NCBI RefSeq assembly: GCF_000236865.1
Contig: NZ_HE611016.1
Location: forward strand, 388,585-421,550
DNA length: 32,966 nt
Reading direction: 5' to 3'
Source: Senegalimassilia anaerobia JC110
GTDB taxonomy: Bacteria; Actinomycetota; Coriobacteriia; Coriobacteriales; Eggerthellaceae
In this document: one piece after another, positions 19,093 through 32,689 of the stretch
How the letters are laid out: each line of letters begins with the position of its first letter
Position numbering within the stretch: position 1 is the stretch's first letter
The notes under the pieces: generated by a model
Told to the model about the DNA's origin: nothing
Seen by the model: the letters and a program-made list of their open reading frames with translations, nothing else
The model's database searches: none
Program-made: the position numbers and the translations under genes

Positions 19093-19250
19093 CGCGGAGA
19101 TGCGCGACGACGCGACGGCACGACACGACGGCTGAGATTCGCGAATGAATTACCGACATGGGGCCATCCTCCCGGCGGCATTTCTTTCGCCCGCAAAACC
19201 CGCCACGCCACCGCCCAGCGGGCGATTTGCTCGCTCGCAAAACCCAATAG

Positions 19251-19288
19251 AAACGGAAACCGGCGCTCGAGGGCGCCGGTTTCCGTTT
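19251..19288. terminator. Bidirectional hairpin terminator between oxidoreductase and stress-protein genes
   Basis: A 16-bp perfect stem (19251-19266 with 19273-19288), A-rich on the left and T-rich on the right, lies between converging genes. It is a good intrinsic terminator in both directions. The remaining intergenic DNA (19093-19339) holds nothing else I can identify. Confidence 0.8.
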
Positions 19289-19339
19289 GGAGGGGATGCC
19301 GCCATGCGGAGATGCGGCATCGGATATGTTGCGAAGCGC

Positions 19340-20197
19340 TTATGCCTGAGGGACGATGATGGTCGGCACCTTCAGGTTCAAAAGCACGCTATGCGTGACG
19401 CTGCCGAACAGCGTGCGACCCAGCGCATTGCGCGAGTTGGTGCCCATGACCAGCATGGACGCTTCCTTGCTGGCTTCGACAAGGGCACGGGAGGGCGAGG
19501 AATCCTCAACGGTACGGCCCGTTACCTGCAAAGCAGGGTGCTCGAAGGCAAGTCGGCCGAGCTGGCGGTCAAGCTCGATCTGACGCTGCTCGCCGACGGG
19601 AGCAAGGCCGCCGCCCATGGATTCCGCGGTGCGCTCAAGCCATGCGGGAACGCCCCAAACGCTGACCAGCTCAAGCGGCTGCTGGGTTGCCACGGCCGCG
19701 CGTGCGGCGAAGTCGATGGCGCAGACGCTGACCGCCTCGTCGGGGCCGACACCCACGACGATCCCGATGCCCTGCTGCTTCGCATCCCAGTCCGCGGGCA
19801 CCACAACGGTGGGGACGCTGGTGGAAACGGAAACGCGCAGGCCCTTCGCGCCGCTGATGGTTTCGCCGATGGTGTGGCCGTGGTGGCTGCCCAACACGAT
19901 CAAGTCGTGCATGGCCGCGGAATCGGCGAGCACGCCGACGATGTCGCCAACGGAGACGCTTGCCTGGATGCGCATGTCGGGATAGCTTTCCAGGGCTGCT
20001 TGGCGCTTCTTCTCGAGCGCGGCGGTCACGGTGTCGGTGATGGTTTCGACGCCTACTCCGGCTTTGTTGGCGATCGCTTCATCGATGACCGCCAGCATGT
20101 GGACGTCGTAACCGACCACGCGAGCGAATCGCACCGCCCAATCAAGGGCGCGACGCCCGCGATCGCTGCCGTCAATGCCTACCAAAATGCTTCCCAT
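19340..20197 (-). CDS. Tandem universal stress protein (UspA family)
   Basis: The protein has 285 residues with two Usp domains. Domain 1 (1-140) starts GSILVGIDGSDRGRRALDWA and ends LIVLGSHHGHTIGETISG then GLRVSVSTSVPTVVVP. Domain 2 (about 150-285) starts IGIVVGVGPDEAVSVCAIDFA and ends MLVMGTNSRNALGRTLFGSV then VPTIIVPQ. The G-x2-G-x9-G(S/T) nucleotide-binding motif is only approximate in both halves, so ATP binding is uncertain. Such cytoplasmic proteins are made under growth arrest or stress. The gene ends at a shared terminator, and a GGAGTTGCAATGG start region gives a reasonable ribosome-binding site. Confidence 0.9.
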   Translation of the reverse strand: MGSILVGIDGSDRGRRALDWAVRFARVVGYDVHMLAVIDEAIANKAGVGVETITDTVTAALEKKRQAALESYPDMRIQASVSVGDIVGVLADSAAMHDLIVLGSHHGHTIGETISGAKGLRVSVSTSVPTVVVPADWDAKQQGIGIVVGVGPDEAVSVCAIDFAARAAVATQQPLELVSVWGVPAWLERTAESMGGGLAPVGEQRQIELDRQLGRLAFEHPALQVTGRTVEDSSPSRALVEASKEASMLVMGTNSRNALGRTLFGSVTHSVLLNLKVPTIIVPQA

Positions 20198-20520
20198 TGC
20201 AACTCCTAACGAAGTGATCGCATTCGGATATCGGTCAGAAGATGATACCCGCCAAAAGCACCTATCCGCAATCGTTGATTAGTGGAACATGAGCGCTTTG
20301 CCCGACGAGCGTTTCGCAACCGCTCGCAAGCCTTCGGCAAGTCTCATTAAACATCAGCATCGCCCATTTGAGCAGTAAAAACCCTGTAAATCTGCCGCGA
20401 AGGGCGCATCAAGGAGCACCTATACCCTCGAACGTGCCTGAGCCACAACTAGCACTCCGATAAAGATTTTTTCGAAAGGAAAACTGCAATCGCCGATTTG
20501 ACCGCACGCAAAACGCACGC
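20198..20520. other. Intergenic region, no gene seen
   Basis: This region contains the promoter side of the stress-protein gene and AT-richer DNA before the small-RNA region. I find no reading frame, strong hairpin or known RNA in it. Confidence 0.4.
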
Positions 20521-20632
20521 TTGACCGAGAACGCTAAGGACGATAGAGTAACGCTACTGATACGGCCCCGTGGACTCTAAGTGAGGCGGGGACTAGAAGG
20601 GTCGCTAGCCTGCCGGGTTAGCGGCCCTTTGA
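20521..20632 (+). ncRNA. Candidate small RNA 1 upstream of the Abi_2 gene
   Basis: A near-consensus promoter, TTGACC (20521-20526), 17-bp spacer, TAGAGT (20544-20549), predicts transcription from about 20556. The RNA would fold as a 5-bp stem CCCCG/CGGGG (20566-20570 with 20587-20591) with a 16-nt loop. A short linker leads to a 14-bp stem with two wobble pairs (20597-20610 with 20616-20629) that ends in CCCTTTG, a weak terminator. The expected length is about 75 nt. The same layout and the same -10 sequence recur in candidate 2. No reading frame is present. A small structured RNA called the abiF motif is known beside abiF genes; whether this is a member I cannot check. Confidence 0.5.
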
Positions 20633-20763
20633 CATTAAGGGCGGCAAACAACAAGGGAGCTCAAGGCCGCAGACGAGTTTATGCTGCTGCCGAGAACCGA
20701 GTCAACACATTGCGCCTCGAAACGGAAAAGCAATTCGCCAACCGCAAGAAGCGCTATGGGATT

Positions 20764-20866
20764 TTGACATTCAGAATAAATGAGGGTAGAGTATTCGGCG
20801 TGATGAGGTTGCGAAACGGTACGTCCGCCGCAATCCAAGAAAACCGCCGAAAGGCGGTTTTCTTGT
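20764..20866 (+). ncRNA. Candidate small RNA 2 immediately upstream of the Abi_2 gene
   Basis: A consensus -35 TTGACA (20764-20769), 17-bp spacer and TAGAGT (20787-20792) predict a start near 20799. The RNA has a 7-bp stem GGTTGCG/CGCAATC (20807-20813 with 20829-20835) with a 15-nt loop. Directly stacked on it is a perfect 13-bp terminator stem (20836-20848 with 20853-20865, GAAA loop) whose right arm contains TTTTCTT. The product would be about 67 nt, ending 12 nt before the Abi_2 ATG. Read-through past the terminator would express the protein, so RNA and toxin levels may be linked. This resembles the published abiF RNA context; identity with that motif is inferred. Confidence 0.6.
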
Positions 20867-20877
20867 ATAGGGGGATT

Positions 20878-21795
20878 ATGGACAAACCGTTCAAAACCAT
20901 TGACGAGCAAATTGAGCTAATCGAATCGCGAGGGATGACAACGGACGAAAACACGCCCGGAATTCTATTGCGCGAGGGATACTACTCTGTTATCAACGGT
21001 TACAAAGCACCCTTCATCGACAGAACGGCAACCGCCACGGCAGGTGACGACAGATACTCACCAGGCTCGAAGTTTTCAGATATTTACAGCTTATTCAGGT
21101 TTGACCGAGCGTTAAGGCTTCTTCTGTTCGGGCGCTTTTCCATTGCTGAGGAAACGCTAAAAACCATCGCATCTCATTGTTTTTCTCAAGCCCACACGGG
21201 AGAACGCGAGCCTTACCTGGACCCCGCTAGCTACGATGCAGAAAAGCACCAGGTAACCAGGCTAATTTCTGATTTCGAAACTGCTCTTGGCAGAAACCCG
21301 CGAAGACAGCCAAAACACAAACTCTATCTGCAGCATTACGTATCGAATCATGACGAGGTACCAGTCTGGGTGATCATGAAGTACATGACATTAGGGCAAG
21401 CATTCAAGTTTTACTGCTTCCAGCCAGAATCCATTCGAAACGATGTAGCTAAGACCTTCTCAAGGCTATACGCTAGCTGCCATGCAAAGCCGATTCGCAT
21501 CAGCCAAAGAAAACTGCGCTTGGTATACGATCACATCAAAGACTTTCGCAACATATGCGCCCACGATGAAAGATTGTACTGCGCAAGGGTCGCGCCTTCT
21601 TCCGACACAGCAATCGGAGATGTGGTCAAAGAGCTGCAGCTGGTGTTGTCAAAGGAAGAGTATGTGAGCTTCTTGGCAGACTATCTAAAAATGATCCCGG
21701 AACTAGCAAGGGGCATCGATCCCAAAATCATGGCAAAGGTATTGAACGACATGAAAATGGGTCCGATTATGGAATCATTCGTAGTCAACGAGTGA
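20878..21795 (+). CDS. Abi_2 (AbiF-like) abortive-infection HEPN protein
   Basis: The protein has 305 residues. The ATG at 20878 follows TAGGGGG; a longer open frame from 20581 runs through the two predicted RNAs and is rejected. Family segments are KPFKTIDEQIELIESRGM (residues 3-20), LLREGYYSVINGYKAPF (30-46), LFRFDRALRLLLFGRFSIAE, VPVWVIMKYMTLGQAFKFY (161-179), and the HEPN catalytic motif DFRNICAHDERLY (222-234; Arg224 and His229 as R-x4-H). Proteins of this type stop phage growth, probably by RNA cleavage. It is the second Abi_2 protein in the window and only distantly like the first. The gene is more AT-rich than its neighbours, consistent with transfer into a metabolic region. Confidence 0.88.
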   Translation: MDKPFKTIDEQIELIESRGMTTDENTPGILLREGYYSVINGYKAPFIDRTATATAGDDRYSPGSKFSDIYSLFRFDRALRLLLFGRFSIAEETLKTIASHCFSQAHTGEREPYLDPASYDAEKHQVTRLISDFETALGRNPRRQPKHKLYLQHYVSNHDEVPVWVIMKYMTLGQAFKFYCFQPESIRNDVAKTFSRLYASCHAKPIRISQRKLRLVYDHIKDFRNICAHDERLYCARVAPSSDTAIGDVVKELQLVLSKEEYVSFLADYLKMIPELARGIDPKIMAKVLNDMKMGPIMESFVVNE

Positions 21796-23600: not shown

Positions 23601-23826
23601 AGGTTCATTATGAACCTCGATTGCTTTATGAAATTGAACACACAGCTATACGAACGTGCTACACTGCAAGAAATTGAACCAATGAACTACGAACCGCAGA
23701 TGAGTTTTCACCTCAGTTCATAGTTCAATTTAATGGTTCATAAACCAGATTGTTCATACTATAGTTCAATTTATGGTTCAATTTTATATTGAACTGTGCC
23801 TTGAACCTATAGTTTGAACTTTGAAC
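23601..23826 (+). promoter_or_regulatory. Dense array of GAAC/GTTC boxes, probable autoregulatory operator
   Basis: Within 226 bp there are about 17 copies of a TTGAAC/TGAACC-type box in both orientations. They include a perfect palindrome AGGTTCA-TTA-TGAACCT (23601-23617), TTGAAC at 23634, 23674, 23789, 23801, 23814 and 23821, and GTTCAA or GGTTCA at 23723, 23735, 23764 and 23775. The last box touches the ribosome-binding site of the HTH-aminotransferase gene. Such an array predicts cooperative binding of the XRE-type domain encoded just downstream, or of another regulator. The AT-rich content also offers several possible -10 elements. Confidence 0.65.
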
Positions 23827-23838
23827 GAAAGGAACAGC

Positions 23839-25404
23839 ATGGATCAGAACGTGTTTGCCGAACAGCTGAAGATTGCCATGGATGCCGCCGGCATGAAGCA
23901 GGCAGATTTGATCCATGCAGCGCAAGAAGAAGGTCATAAACTCTGGAAAAGCCAGGTCAGCCAGTACGTTAGCGGCAAGACCATCCCCCGCCCCGATGTA
24001 ATGCAGCTGCTTGCTGAACTATTGAACGTCACTCCTGAGTGGCTGGGTGGCGAGGAGTCTGCACCTATGACTCCTTCCGAACATGAACCTTCTGCACCTG
24101 AACCACATGCTCATGAAGTTCAAAGCGATTTTGAACTTTCCAATACTAATGAACCTGCCGTGTCTGATGATCAAGGGAGCGTACCTATGCGTCAGTTCAA
24201 GAAATCCTCGAAGCTTGATAACGTTCTGTACGATGTTCGTGGTCCGGTTGTGGACGAAGCTGCACGCATGGAGTCCCAAGGCATGCGCATTTTGAAATTG
24301 AACATCGGCAACCCTGCCCCGTTCGGGTTCCGCACGCCCGACGAGGTTGTTCAGGACATGCGACATCAGCTTCCCGATTGCGAGGGTTACAGCGATTCGA
24401 AGGGCTTGTTCAGCGCACGCAAGGCCATCATGCAGTACTCTCAGATCAAGGGCCTTCCCAATGTTGATATGGACAGCATCTACACCGGCAACGGCGTGAG
24501 CGAGCTCATTAACCTGTGCATGCAGGCGCTGCTCGACACCGGCGACGAGATTCTTATCCCCAGCCCCGACTATCCGCTGTGGACGGCTTGCGCCACCCTT
24601 GCCGGCGGCACGCCCGTTCACTACATCTGCGACGAGCAGGCTGAGTGGTATCCCGATATCGACGATATCGAGCGCAAGATCACGCCGCGCACAAAGGCCA
24701 TCGTCATCATCAACCCCAACAACCCCACCGGCGCGCTGTATCCGCGCGAGGTGCTGCAGCAGATCGTAGATGTGGCTCGCAAGCACCAGCTAATGATCCT
24801 GTCCGATGAAATCTATGACCGCTTGGTCATGGACGACCTTGAGCACGTATCCATCGCAAGCCTTGCTCCCGATCTGTTCTGCATCACCTTCTCGGGTCTT
24901 TCGAAGTCGCACATGATTGCCGGCTATCGCATCGGTTGGATGGTGCTGTCCGGCGAGAAATACTGCGCGCAGGACTTCATCTTGGGCCTGAACATGTTGT
25001 CGAATATGCGCTTGTGCTCCAACGTGCCGGCGCAGTCCATCGTCCAGACCGCTCTGTGGGGCCATCAGAGCGTGCGCAATTACGTGGTACCCGGAGGCCG
25101 CGTATGCGAGCAGCGCGATTACGTATACAAGGCGCTCAACGACATCCCCGGCATCACCGCCGTCAAACCCCGTGCAGCCTTCTACATCTTCCCGAAGATC
25201 GATGTGAAGAAGTTCAACATCACCAACGACGAGCAGTTCGCACTCGACCTGCTGCACGAGAAGAAGATCCTGCTGGTTCCCGGCAAGGGCTTCAACTGGG
25301 GTTCGCCCGACCACTTCCGCGTGGTATACCTGCCGCGTATCGAAGTGCTCTCCGAAGCCATGGGTCAGCTCGGCGACTTCCTCTCGCACTACCGCCAAGC
25401 GTAG
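23839..25404 (+). CDS. Bifunctional XRE-type HTH / class I aminotransferase
   Basis: The protein has 521 residues. Residues 1-70 form an XRE-like HTH (FAEQLKIAMDAAGMKQADLI, then SQVSQYVSGKTIPRPDVMQL). A Pro/Glu/His/Ser-rich linker spans about 71-125. The rest is a class I PLP aminotransferase closest to alanine aminotransferases (AlaA type): NIGNPAPFGF, GYSDSKG, TGNGVSELI, INPNNPTGALY (Asn295), LSDEIYD, FSGLSKSHMIAGYRIGW (PLP lysine Lys356) and HFRVVYLP (Arg494, substrate carboxylate). The likely reaction is pyruvate plus glutamate to alanine plus 2-oxoglutarate. Start 23839 has AAAGGAA. This differs from MocR/GntR fusions, which use a winged helix. It may sense PLP or amino-acid state and repress itself through the upstream boxes. 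Confidence 0.9.
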   Translation: MDQNVFAEQLKIAMDAAGMKQADLIHAAQEEGHKLWKSQVSQYVSGKTIPRPDVMQLLAELLNVTPEWLGGEESAPMTPSEHEPSAPEPHAHEVQSDFELSNTNEPAVSDDQGSVPMRQFKKSSKLDNVLYDVRGPVVDEAARMESQGMRILKLNIGNPAPFGFRTPDEVVQDMRHQLPDCEGYSDSKGLFSARKAIMQYSQIKGLPNVDMDSIYTGNGVSELINLCMQALLDTGDEILIPSPDYPLWTACATLAGGTPVHYICDEQAEWYPDIDDIERKITPRTKAIVIINPNNPTGALYPREVLQQIVDVARKHQLMILSDEIYDRLVMDDLEHVSIASLAPDLFCITFSGLSKSHMIAGYRIGWMVLSGEKYCAQDFILGLNMLSNMRLCSNVPAQSIVQTALWGHQSVRNYVVPGGRVCEQRDYVYKALNDIPGITAVKPRAAFYIFPKIDVKKFNITNDEQFALDLLHEKKILLVPGKGFNWGSPDHFRVVYLPRIEVLSEAMGQLGDFLSHYRQA

Positions 25405-30622: not shown

Positions 30623-32689
30623 TTATGCCTTCGATGCCTGGTAAGCCTCGACCAGCTTCTTCGTCACGTCGGCGGGCGCAGGGTCGTAGCCCTCCAGCTC
30701 GATGTAGTAGCTGCCAGAACCGCGCGTCATGGCGCGCAGGTCCTTGGTGTAGCTGATGACCTCGGCATATGGCACGCGCACCATGATGACCGTCTCACCC
30801 TCGTCGGTGGAGTCGGTGCCCACGATGCGTCCACGACGCGTGGCGATATCGCCCATAACGGTGCCGGCATACTCCTCGGTCACCACGATATCCATGGTTG
30901 CCATGGGCTCGAGCAGAATGGCACCAGCCTGCTCGCATGCCGCACGGAAGCCGATGCGCGCAGCGGTCTTGAACGCCATCTCGTTGGAGTCGACCGAATG
31001 GTACGAGCCATCGAACACAGCGCACTTGATGTCAACCATGGGATACCCCGCCAAGAAGCCCTCTGCCATGGCCTCCTGAACACCCTTGTCCACAGCGGGG
31101 ATCAAGCCGCCGGGGATGGCGCCGCCCTTGACCTCATCGGAGAACTCATAGCCCTCGCCGGGGTTGGGGCTGATGCGCAGCCAGCAGTCACCGAACTGGC
31201 CTGCGCCGCCGGTCTGCTTCTTATGACGCCCCTGCGCCTCAGCCGTCTTCGTGATGGTTTCGCGATACGGGATGCGCACGGGAACCAGGCGCGCCTCCAC
31301 CTTCGCCTGCTCCTTCATGCGCGCAAGCAGCGTTTCCACCTGAGCTTCGCCCATTGCCGTGACGATGGTCTGGTGCGTCTGCTCGTTACGCGCAACGCGC
31401 AGCGTGGGGTCGTTCTCAACCGCACGTGTAAGGAAGGTGCCGACCTTGTCCTCTTCCTTCTTATTAGCCGCCTCGATGGCGACGGGGTATTGCGGCACAG
31501 GCAGCGGCAGCGGATCGATGGACATCGTGCCCGATTGCGACAGCGTGTCGCCGGCACGCGTATCGGTGAGCTTGGGAACCACGATGATGTCGCCGGCCTT
31601 CGCCGACTTCACATCCGTGGCCTCCTTGCCCATCATCACATACAGATGGCCCAGGCGATCCTTTTTGCCCGTGCGCGCGTTGATCAGCTCCATACTGGGC
31701 GTGAGCACGCCGCTGATCAGCTTCAAGTAGCTCAAACGTCCCACGAACGGGTCGGCAACGGTCTTGAAGACGAACGCCGCCGGCTCGCCGTCCTCGTCCA
31801 CGAACGTCTCCTCGCCATTGGCAAGGCGGAACGCGCCGTGGTGGCGCGGGTGCGGGAAATAGGTGCAGATATCCTTCATCACGCAGCGGATGCCCTGCTC
31901 GATGATGGTGGAACCCACGTATACGGGGATGAACAGTTCCTGCGCGATGGCCTTGTCAAGCAGGCTTTCAAGCTCTTCCTGCGTGAGCTGCTCGGAGCCG
32001 TCCAGGTATTTCATCATCAGATCATCGTCGGCCTCTGCCACCAGGTCGCACAGGCGATCGCGCGCGATCTGCGCCGCCTCGGCGTATTCCGCCGGAATAT
32101 CCTCGATGCGGTCGTCGGTGGTGCCGTCCTGATCGAAGTAACGCGCCTTCATGCGCAGCACATCGATGACGCCCTTGAAGTCCTCGGCAACGCCGATGGG
32201 GATGGTGACCGGCCCCAAGCGGCTTCCGAAGCGCGCGTGCAGCTGCGCCATGATGGTATCGAAGTTCGCGTGCTCGCGATCGATGTGGTTGATGAACACG
32301 GCGCGCGACAGGCGCATGCCCTCGGCCTCGCGCCACAGCTTCGTGGTCATGACCTGGGGGCCTGCGACGGCGTCGACGACGAACAGCGCCATTTCGGCAG
32401 CCTGCATGGTGGCAAGCGTGTCGCCGATGAAGTCGGGATGGCCCGAGGTGTCGAGCAGGTTGATCTTGTAATCATGGTACGGAATGGGCGCGACGGAGGT
32501 ACCCAGAGTGAACTTGCGGCGAATCTCCTCCTGGTCGTAATCAAGGTAGGATTTGCCGTCGTGGGTGGTTCCCATGCGCGGCGTGCGGCCTGAAACGTGC
32601 AGCATAGCCTCGGCGAGCGAGGTTTTGCCGGCGCCGTCTTGGCCCACCAGCACGATGTTTCGGACATGTTCGGTAGCAGGAGCTGCCAT
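30623..32689 (-). CDS. EF-G-like GTPase (FusA2-type paralogue)
   Basis: The protein has 688 residues and all five EF-G domains. G1 is GQDGAGKTS (16-24), G3 is DTSGHPDF (80-87, with catalytic His84; usual DTPGHVDF), and G4 is NHID (134-137) where NKxD is standard. The switch I region lacks the RGITI motif of true EF-G. Domain IV begins near ARLVPVRIPYRETI and includes HKKQTGGAGQFGDC; domain V ends with YAEVISYTKDLRAMTRGSGSY. Such divergent paralogues do not replace EF-G in elongation and are linked to ribosome rescue, recycling or stress. The ATG at 32689 follows AAGGTG. A housekeeping fusA presumably lies elsewhere. Confidence 0.9.
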   Translation of the reverse strand: MAAPATEHVRNIVLVGQDGAGKTSLAEAMLHVSGRTPRMGTTHDGKSYLDYDQEEIRRKFTLGTSVAPIPYHDYKINLLDTSGHPDFIGDTLATMQAAEMALFVVDAVAGPQVMTTKLWREAEGMRLSRAVFINHIDREHANFDTIMAQLHARFGSRLGPVTIPIGVAEDFKGVIDVLRMKARYFDQDGTTDDRIEDIPAEYAEAAQIARDRLCDLVAEADDDLMMKYLDGSEQLTQEELESLLDKAIAQELFIPVYVGSTIIEQGIRCVMKDICTYFPHPRHHGAFRLANGEETFVDEDGEPAAFVFKTVADPFVGRLSYLKLISGVLTPSMELINARTGKKDRLGHLYVMMGKEATDVKSAKAGDIIVVPKLTDTRAGDTLSQSGTMSIDPLPLPVPQYPVAIEAANKKEEDKVGTFLTRAVENDPTLRVARNEQTHQTIVTAMGEAQVETLLARMKEQAKVEARLVPVRIPYRETITKTAEAQGRHKKQTGGAGQFGDCWLRISPNPGEGYEFSDEVKGGAIPGGLIPAVDKGVQEAMAEGFLAGYPMVDIKCAVFDGSYHSVDSNEMAFKTAARIGFRAACEQAGAILLEPMATMDIVVTEEYAGTVMGDIATRRGRIVGTDSTDEGETVIMVRVPYAEVISYTKDLRAMTRGSGSYYIELEGYDPAPADVTKKLVEAYQASKA

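Follow-up and report, generated by a model that had tools for sequence, protein, structure and literature searches.

The window, by which we mean the whole 32,966-nt stretch of DNA that was analysed, contains a gene whose product is best read, by homology, as an AlaA-type glutamate-pyruvate transaminase carrying an HTH head of the phage TP901-1 CI type. Comparison with its orthologues indicates that this transaminase probably represses its own gene, and that the DNA encoding the linker between its two domains would carry auxiliary operators in some lineages together with an internal start for an isoform lacking the HTH. The conserved internal Shine-Dalgarno sequence and ATG at 24187 form a second message in the linker, one that was absent from an earlier note on this DNA, which had dealt with the boxes. 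The features are collected in Table 1.

Table 1. Features of the fusion locus (positions in the window)
Feature	Position	Strand	Basis
Upstream operator-like array, 15 TGAAC/GTTCA boxes	23601..23826	.	Box counts; family motif AAATTGAACTT
Putative extended -10 element TGCTACACT	23657..23665	+	Inferred; position matches conserved orthologue element
Main-start Shine-Dalgarno (ATG 23839)	23828..23833	+	Sequence
XRE-HTH / class I aminotransferase (AlaA-like) fusion gene, 521 aa	23839..25404	+	Pfam HTH_3 and Aminotran_1_2; PDB 4cvq AlaA, E 2.6e-169
CI-type HTH domain, residues 1-71	23839..24051	+	Profile of 43 orthologous HTHs vs TP901-1 CI N-terminal domain; pLDDT 86-97
Low-complexity interdomain linker, residues 72-116, predicted disordered	24052..24186	+	pLDDT about 26-33
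Linker array, 5 TGAAC/GTTCA boxes in coding sequence	24084..24154	.	Counts and recoding tests
Internal Shine-Dalgarno AAGGGAG, 7 nt before ATG 24187	24173..24179	+	Energy -8.6; 0/200 synonymous recodings equal; conserved in family
Predicted internal ORF, HTH-less aminotransferase, 405 aa, beginning MRQFKKSSKLDN	24187..25404	+	ATG conserved; same start in stand-alone relatives

A CI-type HTH domain fused to an AlaA-like aminotransferase

The class I aminotransferase part of the fusion (residues 117-521) has E. coli glutamate-pyruvate aminotransferase AlaA (4cvq) as its best PDB match, and motifs of PLP enzymes such as SGLSK, with its lysine K356, are invariant in 31 orthologues. This homology and the PLP-site motifs place the domain with AlaA; the score against the NCBIfam alanine aminotransferase model PRK08363 is 368.5, below the cut-off of 534. 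E. coli AlaA is a close relative of the enzyme domain, but it lacks an HTH and a long linker, and no box array is known for it. In an AlphaFold prediction of the full fusion the HTH was well predicted, the linker had very low pLDDT (Table 1) and the enzyme part was poorly predicted from a shallow alignment. Apart from the internal start signal, the linker is not alignable among orthologues.

Pfam detected HTH_3 in the fusion and no match to GntR, the winged HTH of MocR-type regulators. MocR, GabR and PdxR, in which a GntR head is joined to an aminotransferase fold, resemble the fusion in having an N-terminal DNA-binding head, a linker and a fold-type-I PLP domain. Since its HTH is of the XRE/CI type and not of the GntR type, we do not class the fusion as a MocR protein; it differs further in its enzyme domain, which is closely related to AlaA and retains conserved catalytic residues, and in the internal start conserved in its family. 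The kinship of the head lies instead with phage TP901-1 CI. A profile of 43 HTH domains matched the N-terminal domain of this repressor with an E value of 4e-16 (5a7l, 3zhm, 6tri), as did a single HTH sequence at about 2e-4, and the aligned recognition helices are near-identical (SKSTLSQYV/WKSQVSQYV). Residues S37, S40, Q41, Y42, G45 and K46 (alignment numbering) of the HTH are invariant across the set, as is the core of the DNA box described below.

A dense box array at the promoter of the fusion gene

We counted boxes by their TGAAC core on either strand (TGAAC/GTTCA) and took as genomic background 400 kb of stretches sampled from the same 2.4-Mb genome. The 250 bp upstream of the gene hold 15 cores (23603-, 23611+, 23635+, 23675+, 23683+, 23716-, 23723-, 23736-, 23752-, 23764-, 23776-, 23790+, 23802+, 23815+ and 23822+), compared with 1.04 after dinucleotide shuffling of that stretch, and nine of the 15 have the full TTGAAC/GTTCAA. 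The palindrome AGGTTCATTATGAACCT at 23601-23617 is the first element of the array, and two further boxes (24015, 24023) lie at the 3' end of the HTH coding part. In the 400-kb sample, none of 32,940 windows of 240 bp contained 15 boxes (maximum 6) and no 555-bp window contained 22 (maximum 7). The crowding described in the earlier note is therefore borne out against both backgrounds; its figure of about 17 upstream boxes becomes 15 when counted by the TGAAC core. One box, AAATTGAACC (23671-23680), lies directly 3' of the putative -10 element, and the bulk of the array then falls within the leader.

Orthologues were taken from 80 loci on genome contigs and from further family members, with totals of HTH-bearing genes that vary slightly between analyses (86, 87 or 89). 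For the window, relative positions in the motif alignment, peptide and leader-fold analyses are shifted by 12 nt, since an in-frame GTG 12 nt downstream of ATG 23839 served as the start; the counts do not change materially. In 86 HTH-bearing orthologues from Coriobacteriia, Lachnospiraceae and Bifidobacterium, the upstream 250 bp hold a mean of 5.17 cores versus 0.62 expected, as against 0.8-0.9 (about 0.4 expected) in the HTH-less, free-standing alaA relatives, all of these being family-wide statistics that kinship among the sequences inflates. A free-standing gene nested among the HTH forms (L142) has two boxes and its sister (L145) eight. Because the HTH was gained or lost only twice on the tree, the co-occurrence of boxes and HTH across the family is supportive, short of a formal test.

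The family motif AAATTGAACTT was derived from 447 aligned boxes, which are used in either orientation and with varying distances between them. In many Lachnospiraceae TTGAAC itself forms the -35 hexamer, 17 bp 5' of the -10 hexamer in TGNTATAAT, while in many Coriobacteriia GTTCAATTT lies within the spacer, 5' of elements resembling TGTGCTATACT; promoters of both groups have another box at the expected start site. With boxes on either side of a conserved -10, one at the -35 or in the spacer and the other where transcription is expected to start, the arrangement is that of an operator. At the level of sequence, then, an operator-like element is coupled to the HTH at the gene's own promoter. Two Blautia genes (L087 and L092) retain the HTH, but they have just two boxes upstream and lack the internal ATG, so that regulation may have degenerated or taken another form there.

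The half-site of TP901-1 CI is AGTTCAYR, and with phi13 CI a C-to-G change in each half-site led to loss of specific binding (PMC8516035); the OL operator of TP901-1 is AGTTCATGAAACGTGAACT (PMC4941734). The core AGTTCA/TGAACT is common to our array and the CI half-site, the family consensus differing outside it. As the box had been defined before the link to CI was found, this match is independent support for the HTH reading the box. The upstream array is very probably the operator of the fusion protein itself, given that boxes follow the HTH in 86 orthologues, that the array is absent from HTH-less relatives and that its core matches the TP901-1 CI half-site; the same three observations support the earlier proposal that the array belongs to the gene's own HTH.

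The resemblance to the CI repressor of the lactococcal phage TP901-1 (and to phi13 CI) thus covers a homologous HTH with a near-identical recognition helix, a shared half-site core, a flexible linker and one operator (OD) inside a coding gene. In contrast, Pfam places an aminotransferase in the fusion where CI has its C-terminal oligomerisation domain, TP901-1 has three operators of two half-sites each instead of a long array, and OD lies within mor, not cI.

Boxes in the linker coding sequence are recurrent but optional

The linker of the window has cores at 24084+, 24099+, 24118-, 24132+ and 24150+. The count of five in 72 bp is as the earlier note gave it, and it exceeds the 0.86 expected from synonymous recoding and the 0.97 from codon shuffling (0 of 500 runs each reached five); none of 33,220 windows of 72 bp in the 400-kb sample from the same genome held five boxes (maximum 4). 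Across 89 linkers we found 58 cores versus 12.5 by synonymous recoding. An unbiased scan of all 6-mers ranked GTTCAA/TTGAAC first (38 vs 4.8, z 16), followed mostly by words that overlap or flank the box (TGAACC, TGAACT, AAATTG) or belong to Shine-Dalgarno sequences (AAAGGA, AAGGAG). One word outside these classes, GTCTCA/TGAGAC, apparently reflects an RPETA-like peptide common to Olsenella and relatives. The aminotransferase coding part has no excess of boxes (250 vs 256 expected), and the HTH coding part has 27 versus 19 expected. The linker box is encoded through varied peptides (IEP, IEL, NEP, HEP, VQ, GS and SS), so that it is a DNA word that recurs, rather than one peptide.

Boxes are nevertheless present in only 27 of the 89 linkers. 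With 62 linkers empty, including that of the closest sister species (L008), and with the state 'three or more' changing at least six times on the tree, linker boxes are, as far as sequence comparison goes, recurrent but optional and no ancestral fixture. Their number is not correlated with that of the upstream boxes. The suggestion that the linker sequence is kept partly for DNA binding therefore holds in part: there are more boxes than the peptide needs, and some orthologues do encode the same box despite amino-acid change, but the boxes are not widely conserved across the family.

The chief explanation competing with a linker function is that upstream autoregulation is real and the linker boxes are passive, functionless copies of the array, gathered by an unconstrained linker through slippage, duplication or gene conversion. 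The boxes come and go, the state 'at least one' changing 20 times along the tree, they are missing from a sister species, and the linker of L150 resembles a 12-bp tandem duplication. However, in L150 the boxes are kept between spacers that differ, full AAATTGAACT words occur in independent lineages through different peptides, and the excess persists when the richest linkers are left out (TTGAAC 24 vs 3.7 without the genus of the window, L149 and L150). We consider passive spread unlikely. In the L150 linker (G081) five GGTTCA boxes lie exactly 12 bp apart, separated by differing spacers and followed by AAATTGAAC, this stretch being written as GSRTGSKQGSTAGSKNGSTEIEQ. In L123 the linker has AAATTGAACT twice, the second copy adjoining the internal Shine-Dalgarno sequence, and an Oscillospiraceae linker (L082) has three boxes.

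A conserved internal start signal for a predicted HTH-less enzyme

An ATG lies directly 5' of KSSKLDN in 82 of 87 HTH-bearing orthologues, at the position where free-standing AlaA proteins begin. The mean Shine-Dalgarno energy at this internal site is -7.8 kcal/mol, compared with -8.2 at the main starts, -2.3 at 1,082 further in-frame ATGs within these genes and -4.2 after synonymous recoding of the site. Most often, in 45 cases, the Shine-Dalgarno core lies 7 nt from the ATG (18 cases at 6 nt and 10 at 8 nt). By occurrence, energy and spacing, a Shine-Dalgarno sequence with an in-frame start codon is conserved here, and it recurs in Coriobacteriia, Bifidobacterium and Lachnospiraceae, where the peptides around it differ. 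From this conservation we infer that a 405-residue enzyme without the HTH would be made from the internal start. A consensus scan of the linker found no internal promoter. The ATG is missing from its usual place in five or six sequences (L071, L087, L092, L113, L149 and L150), and two of these, L149 and L150, are rich in linker boxes.

The internal sequence might instead be a signal for pausing or folding between the domains rather than a start site, as its location at a domain boundary would fit. This we regard as improbable, as the Shine-Dalgarno sequence is paired with an ATG at 6-8 nt in most orthologues, free-standing relatives begin at the same codon, and most lineages without the ATG also have no Shine-Dalgarno sequence at start spacing.

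Alternative explanations of the boxes

A separate trans-acting regulator could read the boxes, with the HTH of the fusion directed to something else, and in two genus relatives (G001 and G002) a TTGAACTAGTTCAATAGTTCAA cluster does precede another gene. Against this, the boxes track the presence of the HTH and TP901-1 CI, a relative of that HTH, recognises the same core; near-consensus boxes number 14 in the genome of the window versus 16 in a reversed control, which gives no sign of a large regulon. We judge a separate regulator very improbable, and the same count led us to reject a wide regulon for the fusion protein. Paired-box patterns in three genomes of the genus are in excess over controls, and those inspected individually are the array and two clusters in G001 and G002. 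The cluster, TTGAACTAGTTCAATAGTTCAAT, adjoins a -10-like TATAATA (L222:2370-2410 in G001 and L223:1700-1740 in G002) and is followed by a gene for a Tat-signal protein resembling molybdopterin oxidoreductase; it is possible that it is a second target of the HTH or the palindrome of another regulator.

Very improbable, too, is the alternative that the leader acts as RNA, with opposite-facing boxes forming hairpins that control transcription or translation instead of serving as DNA operators. It was rejected because the strong fold of 23672-23838 (-49.7 kcal/mol, z -6.9 vs shuffles) lacks conservation, z averaging -0.66 over 84 orthologues and being -0.65 in sister L008. The fold is largely due to the opposite-facing boxes, most of its energy returning when boxes are kept and spacers shuffled; in many orthologues the boxes all face one direction, and Rfam gave no match at the gathering score.

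A proposed model for autorepression and its tuning

Class I aminotransferases form dimers. A dimer of the fusion would thus present two HTHs on long linkers predicted to be disordered, an arrangement that would explain the free variation in spacing and orientation of the half-sites. In the autorepression that we favour, the HTHs would bind AAATTGAACTT half-sites around their own promoter and repress the gene. In some lineages, this one included, half-sites in the linker may strengthen repression from within the gene, through binding that is cooperative or looped, or by obstructing RNA polymerase; such a roadblock fits as well as the repression, cooperative or looped and spanning about 550 bp, that the earlier note put forward. 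In nearly all lineages the ribosome binding site and ATG in the linker would yield an enzyme with activity and without DNA binding. More speculatively, mixed dimers that combine a long with a short form could lower the number of two-headed repressors and so set the amount of active repressor, and substrate or the state of PLP could modulate DNA binding.

We tentatively extend this to a possible reading in which one low-complexity linker serves as peptide hinge, as operator array for its own head and as ribosome binding site and start codon of the head-less isoform, with mixed dimers tuning autorepression. On this view the linker would be a regulatory region that is translated, and it may once have been the spacer separating a CI-like repressor gene from alaA. 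Since no separate HTH gene was seen upstream of stand-alone alaA in L131-L142, the idea of a former spacer is without direct support.

Fusions of an HTH to an enzyme, operators within genes and internal starts all have precedents. The controller C.Kpn2I has an operator inside its own coding sequence and acts by an elongation roadblock (PMC6237814). Like the fusion it is an XRE-type regulator, a small one, with an operator in its own coding sequence; unlike the fusion it has a single site, no enzyme and no linker array, and for the fusion gene a roadblock is hypothetical. We found no description of this XRE-AlaA fusion family in open-access PMC papers, and the combination of operators and internal start in one linker appears to be new. 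If the model is true, a 'disordered linker' would be kept for its roles in DNA and mRNA rather than for its peptide, and one gene would provide a clean case of both a self-repressing enzyme and a plain enzyme. Operator and isoform are predicted here for an uncharacterised family of gut Coriobacteriia, Lachnospiraceae and bifidobacteria, and as the family is linked to a phage repressor with published operators and structures, each step is directly testable.

Neighbouring genes

Elsewhere in the window, an ORF of 354 aa at 19145-20209 (+) has no match in Pfam, NCBIfam or PADLOC. The product of the gene at 30623-32689 (-) resembles elongation factor G and belongs to the PRK12740 type, scoring above the PRK12740 cut-off and well below the cut-offs of tetracycline-protection models. 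Upstream of the fusion locus, 20581-21795 (+) is an Abi_2/AbiD-like abortive infection gene (Pfam E 2e-35; PADLOC AbiD E 4e-39).
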